Of a DNA stretch of 64,000 nucleotides, positions 2,791-43,590 are shown piece after piece (the first letter of the stretch is position 1; every line of letters begins with the position of its first letter). The position numbers were made by a program, and so were the translations under genes. Under the pieces are notes generated by a model. That model had not been told where the DNA came from and ran no database searches. It worked only from the letters and a program-made list of their open reading frames with translations. This DNA is from Hexactinellida sp. DTS-2022 (lineage: Eukaryota; Porifera; Hexactinellida), in contig JAPNXP010000007.1 of the NCBI GenBank assembly GCA_028753945.1, positions 4,216,001-4,280,000 on the forward strand. Direction: 5' to 3'.

Positions 2791-3206
2791 CCCACCGTGA
2801 GGTAGAAAACAGAAAAGAGAAAAGATTTATCTAGTTCAAATAATAATTTATATAAACACTTGTTCATATCTAAATATCTAAACTTATGCACTTCTGTATG
2901 CTATTAATAAATCACTAATATAACTAACTAAACTGTATACATGCAGGTGGAGACAGCAGGTAATCACCAAACCTCAATATGTGCAGTGAATTTAATATGT
3001 GAATATGTGCAATGAATTTAAAGCAATAATAATAATAATCATCATCATAATTAATTCCCACGTGACGTCATAACCCCATAAATCGGTATACGTGTGTCTC
3101 ATTTCATGTTGTCTTGCCATCTAAAATTGTGGGCGAATCGAATAAAAACTGAAAGAGTTATTCCCAAATATGTGCGTTTATGAAGTCATAATCCCGTTAT
3201 TTTCTT

Positions 3207-11775: not shown

Positions 11776-12118
11776 GACTTTCCGGCGTTTCCGCCTATGA
11801 TTAATTCACATTGGAAAAAATATTATTTGCTTTCGTACAAAATGATGTCTAAATTAACTCGATTGGGTTGAATTGGCATCCCTGAATCTATGTTTTTCAT
11901 CCGATTAGCCCACAATTTTAAATGAGAAGACAACGTAAGTGAGGCACACAAATACCGATTTATGGGATTATGACATCAAGTGGGAACTAATTTAGATTAA
12001 GCTCTTACAATTTTGATTCAGTAGTTACAAAATTTGTCACATTATAAATATATTGTTTGCATGTCTATTCATAATTTTATAATTTTCACACTTAATATGT
12101 GCCAGACGTTAACAAAAA

Positions 12119-12540
12119 TCTAGAATTACACCTGTGCCGACAGCATGTTCCTTGGAGGCACTATCTTTTGGTGGTTGGTGGGTTGATAGTGCCTCCAAAT
12201 AACATGCTGCCGGCACAGGTGTAATTTAGATTTTTTCGTCACGTTATCATAACTATAAAGGTGTTAAACCATTTCAGAAAGGTGTTTCGGAAGGCAACTA
12301 CCGTTAGAGTGGTGTAAATTTCGATTTAGCTCTTTCATTTCAGAGATATTCAAGTTTCAACTAGAATATAATAGCTGATGAGTCAGCATTTTTGATGTGC
12401 GTGTTGGGTGTTCACCAACACCAATCAACCCATTCGAAATATACAATTTTTTACAAAATTGTAAAACACATTTTTTGACGATGTCATCATCACCTCAAGG
12501 TGTCAAGACCCATTTGTAATTAGTTTTCATGTAAAACGTA
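12119..12540. repeat. GTGCCGAC palindrome and adjoining family body
   Basis: 12119-12237 is a foldback, ACCTGTGCCGACAGCATG ... CATGCTGCCGGCACAGGT. 12240-12540 (gtgttaaaccatttcag to caagacccatttgtaatt) is a body segment seen again inverted at 30300-30660 and partly at 25020-25180. Confidence 0.75.
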
Positions 12541-13588
12541 AAGCACTGAGTTCAACTTTCCTAAACTTGTGAGCTTTGAATGTTCTTTTAGTTTAGGTAA
12601 AAACATGTCGTCATCTTTGTACCAAATCTCATTCAGATTCACTATAATGTAGAAGTGATTGCCAAAAGAAAACGTGAATCCGGCTAGTTAGTAAGCGAGA
12701 CTTCTAGTACTATCAGGAATATATATCAATTCATCTATATCGTTGGGTTGAAGTGTACAGCTAGTTTCAGGAAGATGACCAAGTTCCACAACTAATACGG
12801 AAGGTATAGCATTGAAAGCTCCTGAGAGTATTTCTAAATTTGATCCAGCTGACTGACATTTGTTACATTTCTTAGGTCTCATCTTATTATTAATGGATTC
12901 TTGTAAAGTAGAAGCAACAAAGCTAATACTTCCTATCTGTATTACAGTGGTGAAAGTTGTACAACAACTGTAGCATTGAAGTATAACAGAAAAGAGATCA
13001 TTAGAAATATCTAATTCCCTTAGGATATTGATAATTCTTGATTCGGACCCAAAAGAATCATATTTTGGCACAATTACGTCATAGGTCACCAAAATACTTG
13101 CCAATCTGGCGATGTAGTCACGAAGTTCGTCAAACTGGCAACGATGTATTAGTGAGATAAAATGTTGGGAGTCCGGATTTAGCGAAATTCCTGTGATTTT
13201 TCCTGCTTTCTCTATCATTTCTCGGTATAGACTAATCAATGAAATTATATTGTCAATAGAGCAGGTATTTAGGTGCAATATATTATTGTATTCACCTTTC
13301 CACTTAGGACATAAGTTTTCCATGTCGGAATTGAAACTATAACTGCATCCTTGAAATGCATCTGGATTTGTGATTAACTCATGATCACTAGTTTCTTCAT
13401 TATCAGACTAAATGGCGACTATTTCTGAATTAGAAATGCACTCTAGGACTACCGGCAGTAGGATTGTTAATGGGTAGTCTCGTTTGTGCGTATCGTTGAT
13501 TTCTATAAGCTGGGTATCGAGATATTCATTATACCATTCTGAAACTAAGCAGGCGACTTTTTCTTTGACTGAATAGTGTACTGAAGTA
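12520..13588 (-). pseudogene. Ubiquitin/SUMO-protease-like (USP-fold) C-terminal domain of the transposon protein, 3' part
   Basis: Reading minus, one frame runs from 13588 to a stop at 12520-12522 with only two in-frame stops, TAG near 13409 and TAA at 12688-12690. Visible features: a Cys-box-like NTCSIDNI (Cys codon at 13261-13263), two CxxC-type pairs (CYSCC and CNKC) as in the USP zinc ribbon, the strand PSVLVVELGHL, and after the second stop a His-box-like LAGFTFSFGNHFY followed by IWYKDDD. This order (Cys box, zinc ribbon, PSxLVVEL, His box with HFY) matches USP and USPL1-type isopeptidases. Such a protease would cleave ubiquitin or SUMO. Here it is broken, and its assignment to the integrase element is inferred from context. 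Confidence 0.6.
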
Positions 13589-13596
13589 CTTGGATG

Positions 13597-14730
13597 CAGG
13601 GCCGTCGAGGGGGGGTAGGCGGGGTAATTACCCCGGGTCCCGAGCCCCAAGGGTGCCCGAGAAACTCTGTCTGTCAAGGTATGCATGGACTTTATTGGCT
13701 GTATTAAGTAGACAAGTCAAGGGTAAAATACAGACTTCGCTGGGCAGAGTAATACCTTGGTTATTTAATCCTTCCTAGAAACCCGGTCCTGACTTACTTT
13801 GTATCAGTTATAAAAAAATTCCATAACTAACTCCGTTTACGGGGTCCGATCCAAACGACAGCCACGAGTAAATAGGCTAACAACCTTTTTGTTTCTTTAA
13901 CTGTTTAGAACAATAAGTCACAACCTGTGATGTCTTCTTATCAACATAAATCTGGTGCAAAAAAACCTCTATAGCTATATAGCTATATAGCTATAGGCTA
14001 TTGAAAATTCATAAAATATAAGAGTAAATAGGATTTAATTTATTTAAAAATGTAAATAGTCTACTCCGCTTAATTTGGACACCTTTGTTCCAGGCCTCTT
14101 GTCCCAATTAAGTGGAGATCTCAATTAACCGAAAAAATTATGTAAAGTAAATAATCTACCTGCCATTCACAACAATTTTAGTCATAAACATGTTACAACA
14201 ATTCCACCAATGGCTGCGGACCCTATATTCAAATCAAACCCATAGTAGGAGACTTAATATTCGGTGGATGCTTTAAACTATCCCTGAACCAAATGTCATA
14301 ATCTCTTGTGAATTTCGATTTACGGACATCATTAATAAAATAGGCCCTATTTAGATTTTTTGTTATGCCTTAATCAGAATTGACCAATATTATTAAAATT
14401 TGTTCTGATCTATCTAAATCTTCTATTGAGCGAACACAATTTTAAACACAATTTGTTGAGTTTGTCCCGATTAAGCTGAGATTGTCCCGATTAACCGAAA
14501 TTTTTAGTGTTAGCTTCTATGGAAATGATTCGGTTCTTAGGGAGTTGTCCCAATTAAATGGTTGTCCCGATTAACCGGTGTCCCAATTAAGCGGAGTACA
14601 CTGTATATATAATACGAATGCGATAGTTTGGGTTTAGTTTATTCACTTCACGATAACGGACCTAAAATATCATAGGGGGCCCACACCCAAAATTATGACC
14701 TGGGGCCCGCTCGCGCTCTCAACGGCCCTG
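13597..14730. mobile_element. hAT-type non-autonomous element, 8-bp duplication CTTGGATG
   Basis: Ends CAGGGCCGTCGAGG and, inverted, CAGGGCCGTTGAGAG. Perfect CTTGGATG at 13589-13596 and 14731-14738. Removing it with one duplication copy restores an open frame in the host transposon gene on the minus strand. No transposase. It contains a CAGT-type miniature element. Confidence 0.92.
14058..14603. mobile_element. pogo-like element nested in the hAT element
   Basis: Left AGTCTACTCCGCTTAATTTG, right CAATTAAGCGGAGTACACTG, inverted. The phrase gtcccaattaa(g/c)cgg is repeated internally. No coding sequence. Confidence 0.75.
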
Positions 14731-15300
14731 CTTGGATGGAGTGCGATAATATCTGTAAACCGAGTGCACTTTGATTTTTCATCAAGTACTTTATGTAATT
14801 CAGATAAATATGATTTCTCTTTTAGTGCTTGCATAAGTTTAGGCTTCAAATTATTTAGAATTTCATCTTCAACTTCTGAACCATGTGGATTGAGTGGAGC
14901 TTCTAAAATTTCGAACATTGCACCAATATTACCGCTACAGTCTCCACCTGGGAAACAAAATGTGATTCAGATAAAGTAAATGTATGCAATTTACATTTAA
15001 ACAGCAAAAGCGGATAATAAATTCGCTTATGCAATAGTAGTGGTTGTTACAATATACTTACATTCGGTTCTAGGGTGGTAGTCGGTGAATTCCTCATCCA
15101 TCAAATTAGAATGCTCAATGGAAGAGGATGTTTGAAACGTTCTCAACTAAATTATAGAATGATATTCAAACTTAAAAAATGAGAATCCAAGAAATTTTAT
15201 TAGCATTAACAACCTTTGGTCGTTTCGGAGGCATTTTGGAAGTAATACGTGTCCTTTTCCTTGGTGTGTTATTTGTTATTGAAACTTCATCTGTCTGTAG
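14731..15300 (-). pseudogene. Middle exons of the transposon protein
   Basis: Three minus-strand coding pieces with plausible splice signals. (a) 15180-15300, acceptor ttatctacag, encoding TPRKRTRITSKMPPKRPKVV, basic and possibly nuclear-localising. (b) About 15052-15137, ending at the donor gtaagt, encoding SSIEHSNLMDEEFTDYHPR. (c) From acceptor ttcccag near 14960 to 14740, encoding GGDCSGNIGAMFEILEAP and a helical stretch up to IIALHP, where the hAT element cuts the frame. No domain is recognised in these pieces. Confidence 0.55.
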
Positions 15301-15480
15301 ATAAGAAATATAATTTTTTACACATGTATATAAAAATACGATATCATTATACATAATATAAGCGTTTTGCTCGTTCCCAAAGCTCGTATAGTACAAGTGT
15401 TTCATTGAATGTCAACAAACATTAAAATAAAAAAATAAAAATATATATATTAATTAATGATATTGATACATGTGAGATCC

Positions 15481-15630
15481 GTTGTAAATATTTTTGGTTA
15501 GGTGGAAAGGAACCTTTTTGGACTTTTCCAACTTAGAAACAACAACGTGACCTTTCGTCACGTTATCTACTTCATAAGGTCCAAAAATTTCGGTTGTCTT
15601 TGTCCCAGGTAGTTTCTTGTCCTTGCCTAT
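15481..15630 (-). pseudogene. Chromodomain/SH3-like integrase tail
   Basis: Reads GKDKKLPGTKTTEIFGPYEV then DNVTKGHVVVSKLEKSKKVP, ending FHLTKNIY. This resembles the small beta-barrel after the integrase core in gypsy-type and KRBA2-like integrases. It is separated from the core linker by about 260 bp at 15635-15890 that reads as unrelated sequence, probably an insertion. Confidence 0.6.
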
Positions 15631-15889
15631 ATTATAATATTATAATAATATTGCGAATAAGTACTTGGTCGGATTTCTCGATATCTGATCTAAAGGACAA
15701 TGATTTACTGAATTAAATCTAGGTATAGCCTGGTTACCATTGCTCTTTAAGCAATGTACCGCATGGGCAGCGAAAACAGACATTAGTGGCTTTACTAGCC
15801 TGATCGTTTGCGCCGCCCCTGTATCGGATCCGTGTAATAAGCCAGGACAAGCCAGGTTCATTGTTTCGTATGTTGCAATCAATCACTAG

Positions 15890-16790
15890 CTTAATCAATA
15901 GAATTCACACATGTTACGCTGGACCTTTGCATCAAAGTATAGCTTCTGACGAGCTTGGTCTTGTCGGATGTTACTACGGGCAAGTTGATAGTCAGCACTC
16001 CGACAGGAATCAATATCATCTATCCACTCGTTTGAATTAACAGGAGGATCATAATTGCTCTCGTTTGTGTCGGATTCAATAGAGATATCATCATTTGTAG
16101 GTTCCTCTTCAAACTCGATATTGTTAGCACGAATCTAATATGCTGGATTGAAGTCACGACCAAACATCAATTTGAAGGGAGTTGTCTTGAGTGCTCTTTT
16201 GAAGTGTGTGTTTGCTGCTAAGCATGCCTCGTGTAATTTATTAGGCCATTCGATGTCAGAGTTTTCGCGCAATTTATCAATCTTGCTAAATAAATTAGAA
16301 ATATATAAGAATGATTTGTTAACAAGCAACTAAAGTAAATACGTTGAGATATAGTACGTATTATAAAATTATTATATGAATCAAGAAAATCACCTCCTCA
16401 AGATTTTATTATGAGCTTCCACAAGGCCGTTGCTTTGTGGGTGATATACAGCTGTTGAACGGTTGTCTATCTTCAGACTCTTATGATATAACTGGAATTC
16501 CTATGCGAGTTATCTTGTAGTTATACAGAATAGAAAATATTACATCACGAAAGACGTTGCATACTGACCTTACTCTGAAACTCAGGACCTTGTTCATGTT
16601 GTATGATTTTTGAGGTTGCAAAAGTGGAGTATATGTTACAAATTTGGTCGATGACTTCACAAGATCGCTTTGATTTAAGTGGCCTTGCAACTACAAATTT
16701 AGACAGGTAGCAAACTGCTACCAACCTATTCAAATAACATCTCTACTAAGTGGCAAGTTACAAACTAAGTAAACACCAATATGCTGCCAG
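15890..16790 (-). pseudogene. Integrase core (rve/DDE type), broken
   Basis: In order on the minus strand: PWQHIGVYLVCNLPLSRDV (the first catalytic Asp of GVDLV is Tyr here), a frameshift near 16735, LVAVCYLSKFVVARPLKSK, IIQHEQGPEF (second Asp region, D to E), YHPQSNGLVEAHNKIL near 16385-16440 carrying the catalytic Glu, then KLHEACLAANTHFKRALKTT and PFKLMFGRDFNPAY. An acidic linker (EEEPTNDDISIESDTNES) follows, ending at a stop near 15890. Gypsy/Ginger/KRBA2-type integrase that inserts DNA ends. Substitutions and frameshifts show it is dead. Confidence 0.85.
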
Positions 16791-16794
16791 GGTC

Positions 16795-19470
16795 CCTCGG
16801 GGGGCGGAATAGGTTCGGGGTATTTTATTGATAACTATCTACCGTCCTCCACCTACCACCAAAAATAAACTAACTGTTCCCTTATTCCTGGAGGAATTTA
16901 GTGACTTACTGGAACTCTTGATCTGCAGTCCTAATAAACTGATATTTGCTGGGGACTTCAATTTCGATTTGGACGTTCCCACATACCCACATGCCAATCA
17001 ATTCAGGACTATATTGTCTACATTCGGTTTAGAACCGCATAATCGAGGGCCAGCACATAAATCTAACCATACCCTAGATGTTGTTATCACCAGATGTTCT
17101 GAACTGAGTACGTATCATTAAATCATTGAATACTATTAGTGATGTGCCTTCGGCCCATTTCTGTATTGTCTGCAATATTGACTTTCCTCGACCTAAGTTC
17201 ACAAAGTTTCACATCTCCTTCAGGAAAATTAAAGACATCGATCTCAATAGTTTTCTTGCTGATGTCGAACGGCTAGATTTTGGCTCTGACGTCGATTCGG
17301 TAGAGGAGCTGGTAAGAAATTCAATTCTCATCTAAGTACTATCCTAGATGACCATGCACCGATTATTAATAGAACTGCAGGATCCCGTCCACATGCACCA
17401 TGGTACACCGATAATCTGAGAGAAACTAAACGATACCTACGCAAGTTAGAGAGAAGAAAGTAAGAAGACTCTCCATAACATTGATATTCAGCTGTTTGAC
17501 GTTAAAAGACGCGAATACAAAACATCACTGGATCTAGCTAAACGTGAATTCTATCGTGACAAGTTCCAACAATGCGATACAAGACAGCTTTTTCAGTTGG
17601 TTGACAACCTGGTGACTCTCCGAAAAAAGCTTGTTCTACCAAAATATGTTAGACTTGCTGACCTTGTAACTAAATTCTCTGAATTCTTCGAATCAAAGAT
17701 TATTTGTATCCGTGAAACTCTCCTGAAAGCTAGCCCACAGAACTTAACTGTCTCTCTTTCTCAAACTTGTCACTCAACAATTAGTACATTCATATTGATT
17801 GATGACGACCATCTATTAGAGGCAATTGAAGACTCGTCGACAAAGACTTGTGGCCTTGACAAATCACAAATCACTGTCTGATGCCATATTCCCTAGCATA
17901 CTTAAAAAGTCTTTAGTCGTCCCAGTCCTTAAAAAGATATCACTAGATGCTGACACACTAACGAACTACCGCCCGATTTCGAACCTCCCTTTCCTTTCTA
18001 AATTGATTGAGAGTTGTTCTAACACAAATAGGAACTTATCTCTCTAATAACAACCTCTATCCCCGTTTCCAATCGGCTTACCGCAAACACCATTCCACGG
18101 AAACGGCGCTTATAAAGGTGATGAATGACATTGGATCCACACTAGATGAAGGCCTTGAGGTAGCCCTAGTTCTCGTAGACCTTAGCAGCGCCTTTGACAC
18201 TGTAGATCATCAGATATTACTTAATCGACTACAATCTAAGTATGGAATGTCTGGTTCTGACCTCGCATGGTTTGAATCATACCTATCAGAAAGATACCAG
18301 ATCACATGTATTAACAGAACCCGTTCATCCCCCAAAATTCTTAAGTCCGGAGTGCCACAGGGTTCTGTGAAGGGACCATTGCTATTTTCCTTGTATGTAT
18401 CACCTATTGAAGACATTATTGATGCTCACGGATTACAATCAGCATCATACGCAGATGACAATCAAGTGTATATATCAGTTAGGCAGTCCAACAAGGAAGA
18501 TTTTTCTAGAAGATTGGAGCGATGTCTTAGTGATCTGAGTACATGGTACACAAAGAACATGCTCAAATGTAACCCTGACAAAACAAACTATATTTATTTC
18601 TCATCAAAATTTAAACCTAATTATCTAGTCCCGAGACTAGTCATTGAGGGCCATGAACTTGCACCCTCTGACGTTATCTTAAACCTTGGAGTTATTTCGA
18701 CAAACACCTCTTACTTAAAGACCGCATTAATGATATCTGTCGTGGCGCTTCTCTGTCAATTACTCGAATTAATAAACTTCGTAACTACCTTGACGTTAAA
18801 ACAACGGAACGGTTGATACATGCATTTGTCAGCAGCAAGTTGGACTACTGTAACTCACTACTGTACGGCTTGCCCAGTCGTCAGATAGCTCGGTTACAAA
18901 AGATTCAAAACATAGCGGCACGTATTGTAACTCTCACGAAGAAACGACAACATATTTCACCCATACTTCGGCAATTACACTGGCTTCCAATTGAGATGAG
19001 GATTCAATATAAGACATGTGTACTAGTATACAACATTCTCAACAACACCTGCCCTGTTTACCTAAGTAACTTGGTTAGACCACTCTATCATACACGAAAT
19101 CTCCGTTCCACAAACACCACTTGTATTAAGCTCTACCAACCAAGGTCTAAACTTAAAACTTATGGTGGATGACCTTCTCCTTTGCTCCAAGAATATGGAA
19201 TTCTTTACCACATATGGTTAGAAGCTCGGAGACTGTGGCCTTGTTTAAATCTCGGCTAAAAACTCACTACTTCCGTGAAGATGGATCTTGTTTGCCTTCC
19301 TAATCCACATCTCATAATCAGCTTGAGAAACAACCTTTGACTGTACATTTACTTTTTACACTTAATGCATTACTACTTATATTTCAAGGTGTACTGATTT
19401 GTAAGCGCTTCGAGACACTTGTAAGAAGCGTAATTTAAATGCTGTTCTATTATTATTATAAATACCTACT
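16795..19470 (+). mobile_element. CR1/L2-type LINE, 5'-truncated and degraded, inside the integrase transposon
   Basis: Left part (16828-17340) is the end of an APE endonuclease domain: YRPPP, LIFAGDFNFDL, NHTLDVVIT, then SAHF where SDH is expected. The reverse transcriptase (17900-18816) shows NYRPISNLPFLSKLIE, FQSAYRKHHSTETAL, LVDLSSAFDTVDH (first catalytic Asp), GVPQGSVKGPLLFSLY and SYADDNQVY (YADD). 18813-19172 holds the C-terminal KIQNIAARIVT and ILRQLHWLP signature. Several frame breaks separate the blocks. The 3' end has gtaagcgcttcgagacac and finishes in an ATT microsatellite at 19455-19470, as in CR1/L2 elements. Confidence 0.9.
18007..18816 (+). pseudogene. LINE reverse transcriptase fragment
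   Basis: Longest intact block of the LINE: 269 codons covering RT motifs from the fingers (YRKHHSTETAL) through motif A (DLSSAFD), motif B (GVPQGSVKGP) and motif C (YADD) to the thumb (NPDKTNYIYF). Flanking blocks at 17597-18047 and 18813-19172 are in other frames, so the ORF is broken at both ends. Confidence 0.88.
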
Positions 19471-19479
19471 TACATAATT

Positions 19480-19647
19480 TTTACTTGCTCAAACATCCCT
19501 GTCCAGTAGTATTCCCTTCGTATATTACTAAGCGTAGCGTTGATACTTGATACCAGGATGGTGTGTGTCATGGTATAACTTGAGGATATCCTGGACTTTT
19601 AATTTTGAGGGGCATTCTAGAAAAACTTCATTTCCAGCTGGAACCTA
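19480..19647 (-). pseudogene. HHCC zinc-binding exon of the integrase transposon
   Basis: After an acceptor (attgtag) it reads VPAGNEVFLECPSKLKVQD then ILKLYHDTHHPGIKYQRYA, the His-His half of an integrase zinc-binding domain. After a one-base frameshift near 19530 it reads SNIRREYYWTGMFEQV, ending at a possible donor. The LINE lies just downstream. Confidence 0.7.
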
Positions 19648-19714
19648 CAATTTCTCTAAATATAGAAATACCAAAAATAACACAATATATCATAAAGATT
19701 GATTAACAACTCAC

Positions 19715-19861
19715 TTGATAGAGTGTGTTCTCCTCATTTACACGAAATTTCTTCACTTTCCTTCTAAAATTTCTCTTCAACCCTTTGTTGTGAACAGATT
19801 GTTCGGGATATTTTCTGTGAAGTAAAAAATCACATATTTCTTGGTATTCAACAGGATCCAT
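19715..19861 (-). pseudogene. N-terminal exon of the integrase transposon
   Basis: ATG at 19861. Reads MDPVEYQEICDFLLHRKYPE, then the basic run KGLKRNFRRKVKKFRV and NEENTLYQ, ending at a GTGAG donor. This N-terminal pattern precedes the zinc-binding domain in KRBA2-like integrases. Confidence 0.65.
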
Positions 19862-20189
19862 TGAATTATTCAAATTGTATAGAGAAACGCACTAGATTGC
19901 TTTTTTCATAGTGGGCAATGAATATAAGTAGTAATAACATAGACAGAAGTAATAATCTAAATAATTATTATCAAGTTAGTTGTGATAATACTTACTATGC
20001 CTCTTGTATTTGATCAAGTCATTTTCATTTTACACGAAGTACAATTGAAGTCAGGGGGGGGGTAATTTATATTTTGCTATAGTAAATTAAACCCCCCCCC
20101 CCTCATAAGAGAAGGGTCTGAAGTAAATCTCAGGGGGTCCTTTTTCTCAAAAAATAATTTCAGGGGGAGTATAAATGAAACCCTGCAAC

Positions 20190-20649: not shown

Positions 20650-20832
20650 AGTCGACTCCGCTTAATAGAGTCACCTCGGGACCAGGTCGATTTGACCCAA
20701 TTAAGCGGAGAAATCTATTAACCGAAAATATTTTAAGAAAAATGTAATTCCGTCCTATAAATCCTGTGAAATTTTGACCCGATTAAGCAGTGAAATCTAT
20801 TAACCGGTGGCTCTATTAAGCCGAGTCGACTG
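20650..20832. mobile_element. pogo-like miniature element (CCGCTTAATAGAG family)
   Basis: Left AGTCGACTCCGCTTAATAGA, right TATTAAGCCGAGTCGACTG then TA. Inverted ends with internal repeats of the attaagcgg phrase. Same family as 62235-62417. Confidence 0.8.
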
Positions 20833-22969
20833 TAGGTGGAAAGTATGGTCAAGTTCTACATCCTCACTACTGATGGGACTGTAAATTTGGTACTTTACAC
20901 TTCCATACTTATTCTTGATGAAGTTACAATCGATAACTGTACTTACTACTTAAAAACTGCTTCACACAAATTCAGTGTTTATGATATTCATTAAACGATT
21001 CCCTTATGTATCATTCAAAATGTAAAATTTCAAACTAATGCTTCCTCACTAATGGATCGATATCCCACACGGCTTAAGGGGGCATAAATTAAAACAATTG
21101 AGCAAAATTGAGAACTTATAATGTTTTGACCTAAATAATTATGCTAAAACATGAGAAGCTTGTGATTTAAATCGAGTTTCTCTAAATATTTAGATCCGAA
21201 ATGTACCCTAATCAATAAAGTTAACACTACGTATAAGACAAGATCTCCTAAAATGCAACATTTCGAGGAGGTCCCAGAAACTATGCATAATATTGCATAT
21301 CATATTTCCCTAGCCTAAGCGAAAATTTTAAATTAATTACCAGAAAAATATAAAAGGAATTTCTGGAAATTTACCTAAAGTTTGCTTCCAAAATATTCCC
21401 TTTAGAACGATGCTAAATATCCTAAAATAACATCAAAAATGAGTCAACCTAGGCTTGTCACATTTTGAAGCTCAAACATATCCCAAAATAAACAAAGCAT
21501 AAATAATGGATTGAGCATGGAAGATAGAATAAAGCCACTTATTAAATGAAATTGGCAGGGATATGAGCACTTTGGGCAATGGCCAAATAGGATGTTCTAT
21601 GAGAAAATGTCATCTGATGTTTGTGAGACAGGAACAAGGACACTTTGAATCTGATTCCATTTGATACTACACAAATTGATTGGTATTAAAAAGAAAGGTC
21701 GTTACTGCCTAGGTTAGTTATGGTCCGTATCATCTCCACAGAACAGAGTATTATTAACTAGGAGTCCAAATTTTCAGGATAGGTGTCTCATGGGTTACAG
21801 ATGTGCACTTGAGGTCACGATTTTTGACTACATCTTTTGGACACATTTTTTACCTGTTTAGACTGAAATTTAATTGGTCGAGGGAAAATTCATTCATAAT
21901 TAATAATTATCAGTTATTTGTGTTTCGTCTGTCAAGCCATACATTTTTAACATTCGATTGTGTCTATTTCATATTCAATTATTATCAATCAATACAATAA
22001 AGTCTGTTTCCCACCTGGGTCCAAGTTGTACAGTTCCTTAATGAGGTTAGTTTGACTCGATATATTACAGACAAGCTTATTTAAAAATTATGTGTTTAAA
22101 TTAGCATCAATTTACCGGCGCTTACTGGGTTAGTATTTTCTAATTAATTTTATTTATCCTTATATAACCTAAAGCTGGGGTCCACGATATAATAGACTGC
22201 TTATTGGCTACAGCTGAAAGAGGTTGGAGTTCCCTCTCTGCTACCTATATGCAGTTGCTGTACATAGAATCTGCTAAATGTCACTCTATACGACGGTCAT
22301 TTGTACAGAGGCTAACGAGCTGTTAAAATAATTTCTAAATGATTTCCGATAATATAAATAAACTTTTACATGAGGCCTTCGAAAGTTACGTACGCTTCCA
22401 TCAGGGAAAAGGATTACGAATGTGTGACAGACCAACTTTTTATCACAAAATGGCAAAAACGTAAAGACAGGAGAAGGGATGTATAATTTCGGTTAATTCT
22501 CGTTACATTCCACAATATTTAAATACAACCGGAATAACATTTGAAAAGGTGTTTGCTTTGAATACAATCGAGGGCCGCAGGCCCGAGTGCAAGTTGTAAA
22601 GACGCGCGTAGCGCTTGAGCAGCTTGTTATATTAAACCGTGGAAGCTAGTTGGATACCTATTTTGTCAGATTGACGATACTATTGAAGGATTTACCATAC
22701 TTGTTTATCTATTATTACATATGTAAGTATGTCTCCAGGATCATTCTTGAAACTTCAATAATTTTTTACTTATTCCTGTATACTACAACAATAATTTTGA
22801 TATTAGAACTTCTAAACGCCAAATTCCTAATCCGACTCTAAATAGAATTACCCATCAATTGTAGAACTCAGGACCATTGATTTTGGACTGTGGACACAGT
22901 TATTATATTGATTGGTAATTATAGAAATGATTGGGTGCATGATTAAAATCTGGCCTAATTAAATTATAG
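20833..22969. other. No gene seen; contains a fragment of the GTGCCGAC family body
   Basis: 21700-21870 (tggtccgtatcatctccacagaac to ggacacattttttacctg) matches body segments near 25860-25950, 43600-43720 and 63830-63910. A small GC-rich patch (about 22565-22620, gagggccgcaggcccgag) may be another hairpin repeat. Otherwise AT-rich, no coding signal. Confidence 0.5.
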
Positions 22970-24088
22970 CTAGTTCGGCATTCTATAAGGTTGTCTAGGC
23001 TGTTGCAAAGCATTGGGGGGGACCTGTGGGGTCTGGTATAACTTAAGTGGGAGGGGCAGTTGCGGTAGAGAATAGCTGGACACAGGATTATCTGGGTTGG
23101 TAGGGGGCATGTAGTGTAACCGAGGTACCTGAGGGTTGTACACGTAATGCTGGGAGGGCAAGTTGGCGGGAGGATAGGGCTGTCTGACCTGAGGAGCAAA
23201 GGATACAGACATGGGAGGGTTGAAGTACTGGGTCGGTTGGGGTTGTGGGGGGTATAATTGGGGATAGATTATTTGCTGGTTGCACATGGGAACTTGTGTC
23301 TGAGAGGGATTGTGCGGTAGGTTTTGGTATGAGACAAGAGGATCAATGCAATCAAGCGGCTGAGAAGGGGACATTTCCCGGTGTGTAGATATCTTAATAA
23401 TGTCTCTATTAGGAATTTCGTAAAAGTAGGACTTATCCTGTAGAATAGGAAGCAAGTCCACTTGTTTAGCTAAAGGCTCGGCAAGAGATGGAGGCGAGAA
23501 TTGTTCATCCCCCAAAGCCCTGCTCAGTATCTGTCGACCTCGAGATGCCCGTGAGGAAGAGGAATTCCTTCCGCCTCTTGGAGATACCGTCAGGTCCCCA
23601 GGAGGATACCTACTGGGAGATTTAATCGACATCGGAGAGCTGCTCGTATCAAATCTAGAAATAGGACGAGATGCGGTTGGGCGGGGGAGATTAGCTGGAG
23701 GATGGAATCTAATCGGTTGAGGATGGAGTACAGGGCAGGCGTCCTCGTCCTCATCATCCCAGTTCTCGCTCTCCCCTGGCTTTTCCCAGTTGGAAGGAGG
23801 AGGGATATCTGTACAGCCCTTGATAGAGTGGCTGATTTCGTGCTTGCTCTGTTCAAACGCAATTTCCATGTCTATAGCTCCCTTTGAATCACAAGTCTCC
23901 ATGTGGTAGTGGAACTCGGGATCGGGAACTACGTGTCGCGCGTTGAACGGACACGTTTTATACTCTCCGTTCTTGTCGTAATGCTTTCTACACTTGCTGA
24001 TGTGGTAGGGAAGCTTCTTTGCTGCCACTCGGTGGACCGGGTCGTATGGACACATGACGAGTTCTTCTGGGTCCTGTGTGGCAGACAT
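22970..24088 (-). CDS. GTSF1-like protein (two CHHC zinc fingers, long proline-rich tail)
   Basis: 372 residues in one exon, ATG at 24088. Two U11-48K-type CHHC zinc fingers: C13-H19-H29-C33 (CPYDPVHRVAAKK...) and C46-H52-H62-C66 (CPFNARHVVPDPE...), each with spacing C-x5-H-x9-H-x3-C. An acidic-aromatic segment with ENWDDEDED near residue 135 corresponds to the PIWI-contact region of GTSF1 proteins. GTSF1 proteins bind PIWI-clade Argonautes and potentiate transposon silencing (family knowledge). Oddity: usual family members are about 150-170 residues, while here about 230 more residues rich in Pro, Gln and Tyr follow and look disordered. A family cofactor role is likely; the tail's role is unknown. 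A 38-bp tandem repeat lies 110-225 bp upstream. Confidence 0.9.
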   Translation of the reverse strand: MSATQDPEELVMCPYDPVHRVAAKKLPYHISKCRKHYDKNGEYKTCPFNARHVVPDPEFHYHMETCDSKGAIDMEIAFEQSKHEISHSIKGCTDIPPPSNWEKPGESENWDDEDEDACPVLHPQPIRFHPPANLPRPTASRPISRFDTSSSPMSIKSPSRYPPGDLTVSPRGGRNSSSSRASRGRQILSRALGDEQFSPPSLAEPLAKQVDLLPILQDKSYFYEIPNRDIIKISTHREMSPSQPLDCIDPLVSYQNLPHNPSQTQVPMCNQQIIYPQLYPPQPQPTQYFNPPMSVSFAPQVRQPYPPANLPSQHYVYNPQVPRLHYMPPTNPDNPVSSYSLPQLPLPLKLYQTPQVPPNALQQPRQPYRMPN

Positions 24089-24197
24089 CTGGGATACTTC
24101 TGAATACTAAATAGGATCTAATATCGTAACTGGAAGTAGAGTTGAATACTTAGAAGGGGTCGTACACACATTTACGTAAAATTGGTGAAAATGCCTA

Positions 24198-42265: not shown

Positions 42266-43452
42266 ACTGCCTTTATTATTTTTATTTTTATTTTTTCTCC
42301 GTAGACGGTGCCCTGGCCAGATATATAGTTGATGGGCTGAAACTTGGCATGTAGATGCGGATGGACCGTCTAATTTGCACCTGGGGTTACGATTTTTTAT
42401 TACCTAATTTTGGACACATTTTTGACACCTTTCAAAATTTGTCTGGTCCATAACTAAGATAATGTTTTCTAAACCCCCAAAATTTTATTTCACATTTGGA
42501 TTGACCATAAAATTCTGCGTCTGATGGGAGAAGAAAACTTTCAATAAAGGGTTTAATTTCTGCCATAAATGGGGGTTGAAATTTCTTTGTTTACTCACAC
42601 TTCAATTACAGTAAAATTGTGAAATCTAATTCCATTGGTTCACCTCTAATAATTATATTGATTTAACTTGTTAAATCTTACTCTACGTATTGATTCAACT
42701 CGCGATAATTACATTGATTTAACTGATAAATACCAGCTGGATTCTATTTAATTGTAGTATTAGTATACAATGGATTAACTAAAATAATACAATATAAGGA
42801 ATTTGTTGACTCAACTCAACCGTGGATAACATTGCAAAATAAATAACTAATAATATAATTTATTATCAATACATAATGAATGAATGGCATTAAACTCAAG
42901 ATGGTTTATGATAGAAACAAACTTTTAATGTTAGAAAAGGAACAATAAATGGTGCCAGAATATTTAATTTATTTGCATTCGATAGAAAATTAAATTCTAC
43001 CCCTTTTCACAGTGCACGAATTTTCAAATTGGGTTTCGTTTGTGCCACAATTGAGTTGCAAATTCCCTTTGTTTACTAACACTTCAGTTCAAATGAAAGT
43101 GTTAATTATAATTATATTGATTTAACTTGTTAAATCTTACTCTATTGATTCAACTTGCGATAATAATATTGATTCATCTTATAAATTCCAGCTGGCTTCT
43201 ATTTAATTGTAGTATTACTATACAATGGATAAATAAAATAATATACTATAAGGAATTTGTTGACTTAACTCACTCACCGTGGATAACATTGCTAAAATAA
43301 ATAACTAATAATATAATTTATTATCGATACATAATGAATGAATGGCATTTAACTCAACATGGTATATGATAGAAACAAACTTCAAATTAATCTACCGTTC
43401 CTTGTGAACGGACCAATTAACAAATGATTCATGACACCTTGAGGCGATGATA

Positions 43453-43590
43453 ACTTGGCGAAAAAAAATCCAAAATTGCAGCCTGTGCCGACAGCATGTT
43501 CCTCTGGAGGCACTATCAATAAACCACCATCAAAATTTAGTGCCACTAAAGGGACATGCGTCGGCACAGGCTGCAATTTTGGATTTTTTT
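43453..43590. repeat. GTGCCGAC palindrome
   Basis: AAATCCAAAATTGCAGCCTG then TGCCGACAGCATG; right CATGCGTCGGCACAGGCTGC then AATTTTGGATTTTT. Confidence 0.85.

Follow-up and report, generated by a model that had tools for sequence, protein, structure and literature searches.

The window analyzed here is a 64,000-nucleotide stretch (64 kb of contig C16) of the sponge Hexactinellida sp. DTS-2022, GenBank assembly GCA_028753945.1, contig JAPNXP010000007.1, positions 4,216,001 to 4,280,000. It harbors a dead copy of a DNA transposon whose relatives elsewhere in the same genome encode an integrase and a cysteine protease-like domain together, as a single coding unit flanked by one pair of inverted repeats. 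We interpret these elements as cut-and-paste DNA transposons in which a Gypsy-type integrase (zinc finger, DD35E, GPY/F) is fused at its C-terminus to a USP-like cysteine peptidase that likely removes ubiquitin, a reading to which we assign a probability of roughly 60%. The genome searched comprises 112.4 Mb in 18 contigs.

Integrase and protease-like domain in one coding unit

The protease-like frame of the window copy (12688-13407) is not a chance reading, because at least 150 matching stretches were found in the same genome (E ≤ 3.4e-4; 150 of 223 candidates scored), a lower bound on stretches and not a count of elements, some being pieces of one copy. Ten kilobases were fetched around each of 20 places with such matches. 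L027 holds a whole frame: its 897 codons encode the complete protease-like domain as well as Integrase_H2C2 (1.4e-14) and rve (3e-12), within a 3606 bp element bounded by 243-nt inverted repeats of 98% complementarity. L026 (3547 bp, repeats of 194 nt) contains a 792-codon frame with integrase and protease-like part (rve 6.4e-12), the zinc finger lying upstream in other frames, and L028 (3763 bp, repeats of 179 nt) has both parts in an 802-codon frame (H2C2 2.1e-15, rve 1.5e-12), with the end of the protease domain continuing in another frame. Repeat complementarity is 98–99% across these three elements, all of which have exact DD35E spacing; GPY, identified by motif evidence only, is found at residue 401 in L027, 287 in L026 and 390 in L028. 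In L012, integrase and protease exons are joined via seven predicted GT-AG introns into a 907-codon frame. According to the match tables, the protease and integrase matches share the same frame and the same open-frame length (883–931 codons) at seven more places, in pairs on contigs C11 and C3 and singly on C1, C9 and C10.

An initial annotation of the window had proposed that integrase and protease belong to a single element and had pointed to full-length relatives as the place to look. L027 bears this out, and L026, L028 and the spliced L012 agree with it: these relatives do not end at the integrase tail with the protease-like frame belonging to something else. The chromodomain-like tail described in the same annotation is instead a GPY/F module (window 15454-15639, FGPYEV), and no chromodomain match was obtained in L026, L027 or L028 at E ≤ 1. 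A Gypsy long terminal repeat retrotransposon was rejected as an identity, as the repeats are inverted and a Pfam scan gave no reverse transcriptase match in the same three elements. Between the integrase and the USP-like domain lies a region of ~130 residues (L012:4217-4720 and equivalents; LHxxLDxK ... WYxEY ... YPLxVLLPVV), which is common to seven aligned members and has no Pfam match above cut-off.

Several groups of copies are nearly identical. L012, L013 and L014, with repeats of ~290 nt, are 99.6% identical across ~5.7 kb; L021 to L025 have more than 5 kb in common at 97–99.6% identity, and L015 and L016 have common stretches at 95–99%.

Both ends could be placed in 19 of the 20 fetched loci, L017 being without one end. 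Perfect 4-bp target duplications flank 18 of the 19 elements, where ~0.07 would be expected by chance, and the remaining one is off by a single base. The duplication is GNNC in 15 of 18 cases and CCGG, CCGT or ACGG in none; counted by eye, the preceding base is A in 14/19 and the following base T in 17/19, so that the target looks like A-GNNC-T. Elements begin with TGTTG (13/19) or TGTTT (6/19), and their terminal inverted repeats range from 43 to ~320 nt. Joining the flanks recovered clear related empty sites for four of the 19 (L010, L020, L021 and L028) and short, doubtful ones for two (L024 and L027), while none was found for the other 13 in a search covering the window and the 20 loci. 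The counterpart of the L028 site lies within the window itself, at 12124-12270. A palindromic repeat family is present at window positions 12106-12244 and 43432-43590, and its relatives are the landing sites of L010, L020 and L028.

Nature and proposed role of the protease-like domain

The identity of the domain was assessed by profile-profile comparison (hhalign) with 11 USP catalytic domains of the same genome, a host set from which L044, which is without the catalytic Cys, and L051, USP54-like by our own reading, were left out. E-values were 2.4e-6 with 16 family members, 8.2e-7 with 23 members, and 3.7e-6 with 23 members and the host set realigned. The corresponding scores exceeded those of column-shuffled controls (51.1, with 199 valid shuffles reaching 24.3 at most, and 54.3, with 294 reaching 22.8) and of reversed profiles (16.8 and 17.9), and hhalign controls with one OTU (L068) and two integrases returned E-values of 0.52, and of 0.44 and 0.17, respectively. 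The confident part of the alignment takes in both CxxC pairs, the P-P box, the His and the Asp, and, in a permissive alignment of 247 columns, the NTC of the family falls on that of the USP Cys box. The Cys, the two CxxC pairs, the His and the Asp follow the USP order in register with the host USPs, the Cys box reading NTC-[SPA]-x-D-N and His252 being followed by Asp267 (first-row numbering of the family alignment). Among 23 near-complete members, the Cys and each of the four zinc Cys are conserved in all 23 and the His and the Asp in 22 each; L030, a near copy of L031 with Gln in place of the His, was left out of this set. The order of Cys, CxxC pairs, P-P box, His and Asp is that of host USP7-type proteins (L045 and others), from which the family differs in showing 17% identity in aligned columns (against an L039-led profile) and in having Asp in place of Asn after the Cys box. 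The host genome also contains a tandem cluster of nine USP (PF00443) matches at G000:C1:15023836-15068355.

A number of observations weigh against a USP-like identity. None of 16 members has a USP match above the Pfam cut-off, with UCH appearing in one of the 16 at 0.0065, and two profile searches of PDB sequences retrieved no USP at E ≤ 10. Single host USPs match the family weakly, one of the 11 at 2e-4 (L045, which is USP7 by PDB match) and the other ten at 0.006–0.38, and the USP54-like L051 gives 0.18 against the family profile. The Cys half of the domain taken alone scores 13.5, inside the shuffled range (maximum 18.1 of 200), though Cys aligns on Cys. The 23 members used for conservation were selected as near-complete rows and include close copies, broken rows having been left out. 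A single-sequence structure model, with a predicted local distance difference test score (pLDDT) of 34, is uninformative. We describe the domain as USP-like on the support of profile-profile similarity and not of direct Pfam or PDB matches. Of the two kinds named in the initial annotation, USP and USPL1, the former is the likelier, no C98 match having been obtained. OTU and Peptidase_C48 were without a match at E ≤ 1 in the scanned proteins (L026 to L028 and the 16 members). OTU, Ulp1 and VTD identities were rejected, on the results of the Pfam scans, the hhalign comparison with one OTU, and the order of His and Asp, and a USPL1 identity found no support in the Pfam scans. Pattern searches for relatives gave 31 matches in viral contigs and 20 in prokaryote genomes, none of which was confirmed.

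We infer that the domain is an active isopeptidase at the site of transposition. Through the fusion the predicted enzyme would be delivered to the DNA on which the integrase works, and it would most likely take ubiquitin, less likely SUMO, off the transposase or other proteins of the transposition complex. The transposase could thereby evade host restriction or degradation linked to the proteasome, and repair could go ahead. The USP-like domain would then occupy the role of OTU or Ulp1 in Ginger1 elements. A role for OTU and Ulp1 in DNA repair signalling is suggested in the available text of Bao et al. 2010 (PMC2836005), and protection from the proteasome is the suggestion made by the authors of the VTD study in the accessible part of their article (PMC9741609).

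An unlikely alternative is that the domain belongs to the USPL1 (C98) kind and removes SUMO, its targets being silencing factors, chromatin or the transposase. Transposons are subject to SUMO-dependent silencing, and the Asp after the Cys box, which we take to be a USPL1 trait, contrasts with the Asn of most host USPs read. However, no match to C98 (PF15499) was found in the genome at E ≤ 1 or in the 16 members, and the similarity that could be measured is to C19 USPs, with USP7 as the best single host match. Quite unlikely, in our view, is the possibility that the USP fold has lost catalysis and is retained for binding ubiquitin or another protein, anchoring the transposase to a partner in the host. 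The divergence of the domain from USPs and the lack of significant similarity in the Cys half alone would be in keeping with such a role, and the Cys box of two host USPs, L044 in the tandem cluster and L046 elsewhere on C1, itself has no catalytic Cys, but in the transposon family few positions are as well conserved as the Cys, the His and the Asp.

Selection on the domain was estimated as the ratio of nonsynonymous to synonymous substitution rates (dN/dS; Nei-Gojobori) for the 25 pairs of lowest dS among 253. Between families (17 pairs, dS 1.4–1.9 and hence near saturation) the ratio is 0.14–0.49, and among recent copies (eight pairs, dS below 0.06) it is 0.46–1.07. Between families the domain thus evolves under purifying selection, being kept while lineages last, and individual copies drift after insertion. 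Such a pattern is the expectation for cargo that matters to transposition.

The association of the two parts was counted genome-wide, with 74 of 92 matches to the L027 integrase region set against 129 of 150 protease rows after second pieces of the same places had been removed by hand. Within 8 kb downstream, the same strand carries a protease-like match at 49 of the 74 integrase places, and within 2.7 kb at 46; the proportion is 16 of 17 for integrase places above 500 bits. No protease-like match occurs within 8 kb of the remaining 25, many of which are short pieces or weak matches; by eye, an OTU match lies downstream, also on the same strand, at four weak protease-free places (one each on C14 and C5, two on C1). 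The converse case is provided by L010 and L011, 2.1-kb copies in which one common deletion has removed the integrase while the protease frame (394 or 420 codons), the repeats and the duplications are retained. They are the only two full-length matches among eight to a query spanning the deletion junction. L010 (1-10000) and L011 (1-10000) have different flanks and target duplications, and the deleted, protease-only form has therefore moved.

Copies of this kind could mean that the protease works chiefly in trans, a mobile gene helping other elements or altering the host, with no need for the fusion to an integrase. We regard this as improbable: there are just two such copies, the frame of L010 ends early, and any internally deleted copy can use the transposase of an intact element irrespective of its cargo. 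That the protease-like frame is an unrelated neighbor gene or chance passenger, as its separation from the integrase by stops, its splitting by an insert in the window and the 25 protease-free integrase places might suggest, is scarcely credible and was dismissed, given that L027 and like elements have both parts in one frame between one repeat pair, that the same order recurs at 49 of 74 places, and that dN/dS between families is low.

The window copy and its surroundings

The window copy (Table 1) is dead, having suffered a LINE-type insertion, a 1.13-kb insert, two in-frame stops and the loss of the outer end of its 5′ repeat. The initial annotation had already recognized it as broken, and the motifs from which it worked (the integrase stretch YHPQSNGLVEAHNKIL at 16446-16399, NTCSIDNI, two CxxC pairs, PSVLVVELGHL and FGNHFY) are present on the minus strand at or near where they had been placed. 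An element does lie in the interval 12520..19861 first given, but its true span is 12518 to ~20035, including a repeat piece at 20035-19899. This piece is the sole window match for five terminal-repeat queries at E ≤ 0.01, and the same queries found no 3′ terminal repeat of the window copy. At the LINE-type insertion site 168 nt of the transposon are gone. The two stops of the protease exon are TAG at 13408-13410, which precedes the USP-like domain, and TAA at 12688-12690, before the His and Asp motifs.

Table 1. Parts of the transposon copy and its insertions, in window positions
Feature	Position	Strand	Basis or remark
Decayed integrase-type DNA transposon with USP-like domain	12518..20035	-	blastn of L009 element against window: three stretches at 94-98% identity, fourth row being the repeat remnant again
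5′ terminal inverted repeat remnant	19899..20035	-	starts at position 205 of L009 repeat; outermost ~204 nt gone
First coding exon (MDPVEYQEICDFLLHRKYPE...), 5′ of zinc finger	19703..19891	-	resembles L012 exon 1
LINE-type insertion with endonuclease and reverse transcriptase frames, within integrase part	16816..19447	+	RVT_1 2.7e-24, Exo_endo_phos_2 2.7e-5
Integrase core piece (CYLSKFVVARPLKSKRSCEVID...)	16545..16742	-	resembles L012 product
Integrase core piece YHPQSNGLVEAHNKIL, with third acidic residue of DDE	16399..16446	-	read from window sequence
Integrase C-terminal part, two adjoining frames split by stop	15895..16329	-	resembles L012 product
GPY/F module exon (GKDKKLPGTKTTEIFGPYEV...; FGPYEV)	15454..15639	-	motif reading
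Candidate basic exon (TDEVSITNNTPRKRTRITSKMPPKRPK), possible nuclear localisation signal	15214..15294	-	by eye; near-identical stretch in L009; candidate splice sites
Candidate small exon ahead of protease part, end GAAT|GTAAGT	15062..15146	-	by eye; L012 has exon in same place with same donor
Protease exon start and conserved region upstream of USP-like domain	14670..14966	-	runs into second insert
Second insert, ~1.13 kb, splitting protease exon	13603..14730		14 nt of element (3013-3026) matched on both sides
USP-like domain	12523..13407	-	NTC Cys codon 13261-13263; His (NHFY) and Asp motifs downstream of TAA

Related inverted repeats (CTCCGCTTAATTGGGACA-like) are found at window positions 14050-14610 and 20650-20834, the former inside the second insert, and these stretches are probably a short non-autonomous element. 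At 22973-24106, ~3 kb from the transposon, a 378-codon frame on the minus strand encodes a GTSF1-like protein with two CHHC zinc fingers (zf-U11-48K 1.2e-17). GTSF1 proteins belong to the PIWI-interacting RNA (piRNA) pathway of transposon silencing.

Relation to other protease-bearing elements

Ubiquitin- or SUMO-type proteases (OTU, Ulp1 or VTD) are described in integrase transposons, Helitrons and Mutator elements in the accessible parts of two articles (PMC2836005, PMC9741609). The closest anatomy is that of Ginger1, which, as far as the available text describes it, has a Gypsy-like integrase with H2C2, DDE and GPY/F, a C-terminal cysteine protease domain (OTU or Ulp1 in all families but one), terminal inverted repeats, TG..CA termini, 4-bp duplications, a length of 2.6–7 kb and, in some families, introns (PMC2836005). 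The sponge elements share this plan and differ from it in several details of the same description (PMC2836005). The protease is USP-like rather than OTU or Ulp1. The duplications are predominantly GNNC, with no CCGG, CCGT or ACGG, whereas those of Ginger1 are CCGG or CCGT/ACGG. The TGTTT with which six of the 19 elements begin falls outside the published TGTNR termini. Introns number 0–4 in Ginger1, compared with none in L027 and the seven predicted in L012, and the repeats fit the Ginger1 range of ~40–270 bp except that the longest exceed it. Ginger1 also has a YPYY motif upstream of the zinc finger (PMC2836005), and by eye the first exon of the sponge relatives shows a Y-P...Y pattern. The elements are Ginger1-like by anatomy, and they are not filed as Ginger1 because neither the CCGG/CCGT duplications nor the OTU/Ulp1 domain was found. 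Ginger2/Tdd differs in being without GPY/F, which is present here, and in targeting RTATAY, which the sponge duplications are not.

Within the sponge genome, L068 (67-1701), one of the four weak integrase places with an OTU match, offers a parallel, in which an integrase core (rve 5.5e-8), a weak H2C2, a GPY-type module and then a ubiquitin-type protease, here OTU (3.6e-11) instead of the USP-like domain, occupy one frame with one stop. Its integrase is 27% identical to that of L027, no closer than integrases of uncertain type. PF02338 (OTU) has at least 150 scored matches of 440 candidates in this genome, many in frames of 226-228 codons, which may mean that mobile elements of this genome commonly carry OTU genes.

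Two further precedents are more distant. A Trichomonas vaginalis protein joins a transposase to Peptidase C19, but it is a protist protein with a transposase_11 (pfam01609) and not an integrase-type one; the comparison is with its description as cited in the available text of PMC2836005. Helitron proteins with VTD or OTU likewise have a deubiquitinase domain inside a transposon protein, but the element is of the rolling-circle kind, and VTD has Asp-x-His whereas the His here stands 15 residues ahead of the Asp (PMC9741609, accessible part). Among the papers listed in searches of an open library, which covers neither Repbase nor most subscription papers, none describes an integrase-type transposon with a USP-class domain in its title or the start of its abstract, and no such element is reported in the available portions of PMC12863088 and PMC10045372.

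A broader claim, possible though doubtful, is that the elements form a distinct lineage of integrase transposons, large and recently active, which prefers A-GNNC-T and in which a USP-class isopeptidase fills the OTU/Ulp1 slot, that this enzyme counters ubiquitin-dependent restriction by the host, and that integrase-less copies disseminate the protease as a mobile gene. On the preferred reading, a USP-like domain on an integrase scaffold would be a further protease recruitment, in a genome that also carries an OTU-bearing integrase frame. The long-standing conjecture that ubiquitin signalling has a part in transposition becomes testable with these elements, which are compact and single-framed, exist as nearly identical copies, and have one changeable residue, the Cys.

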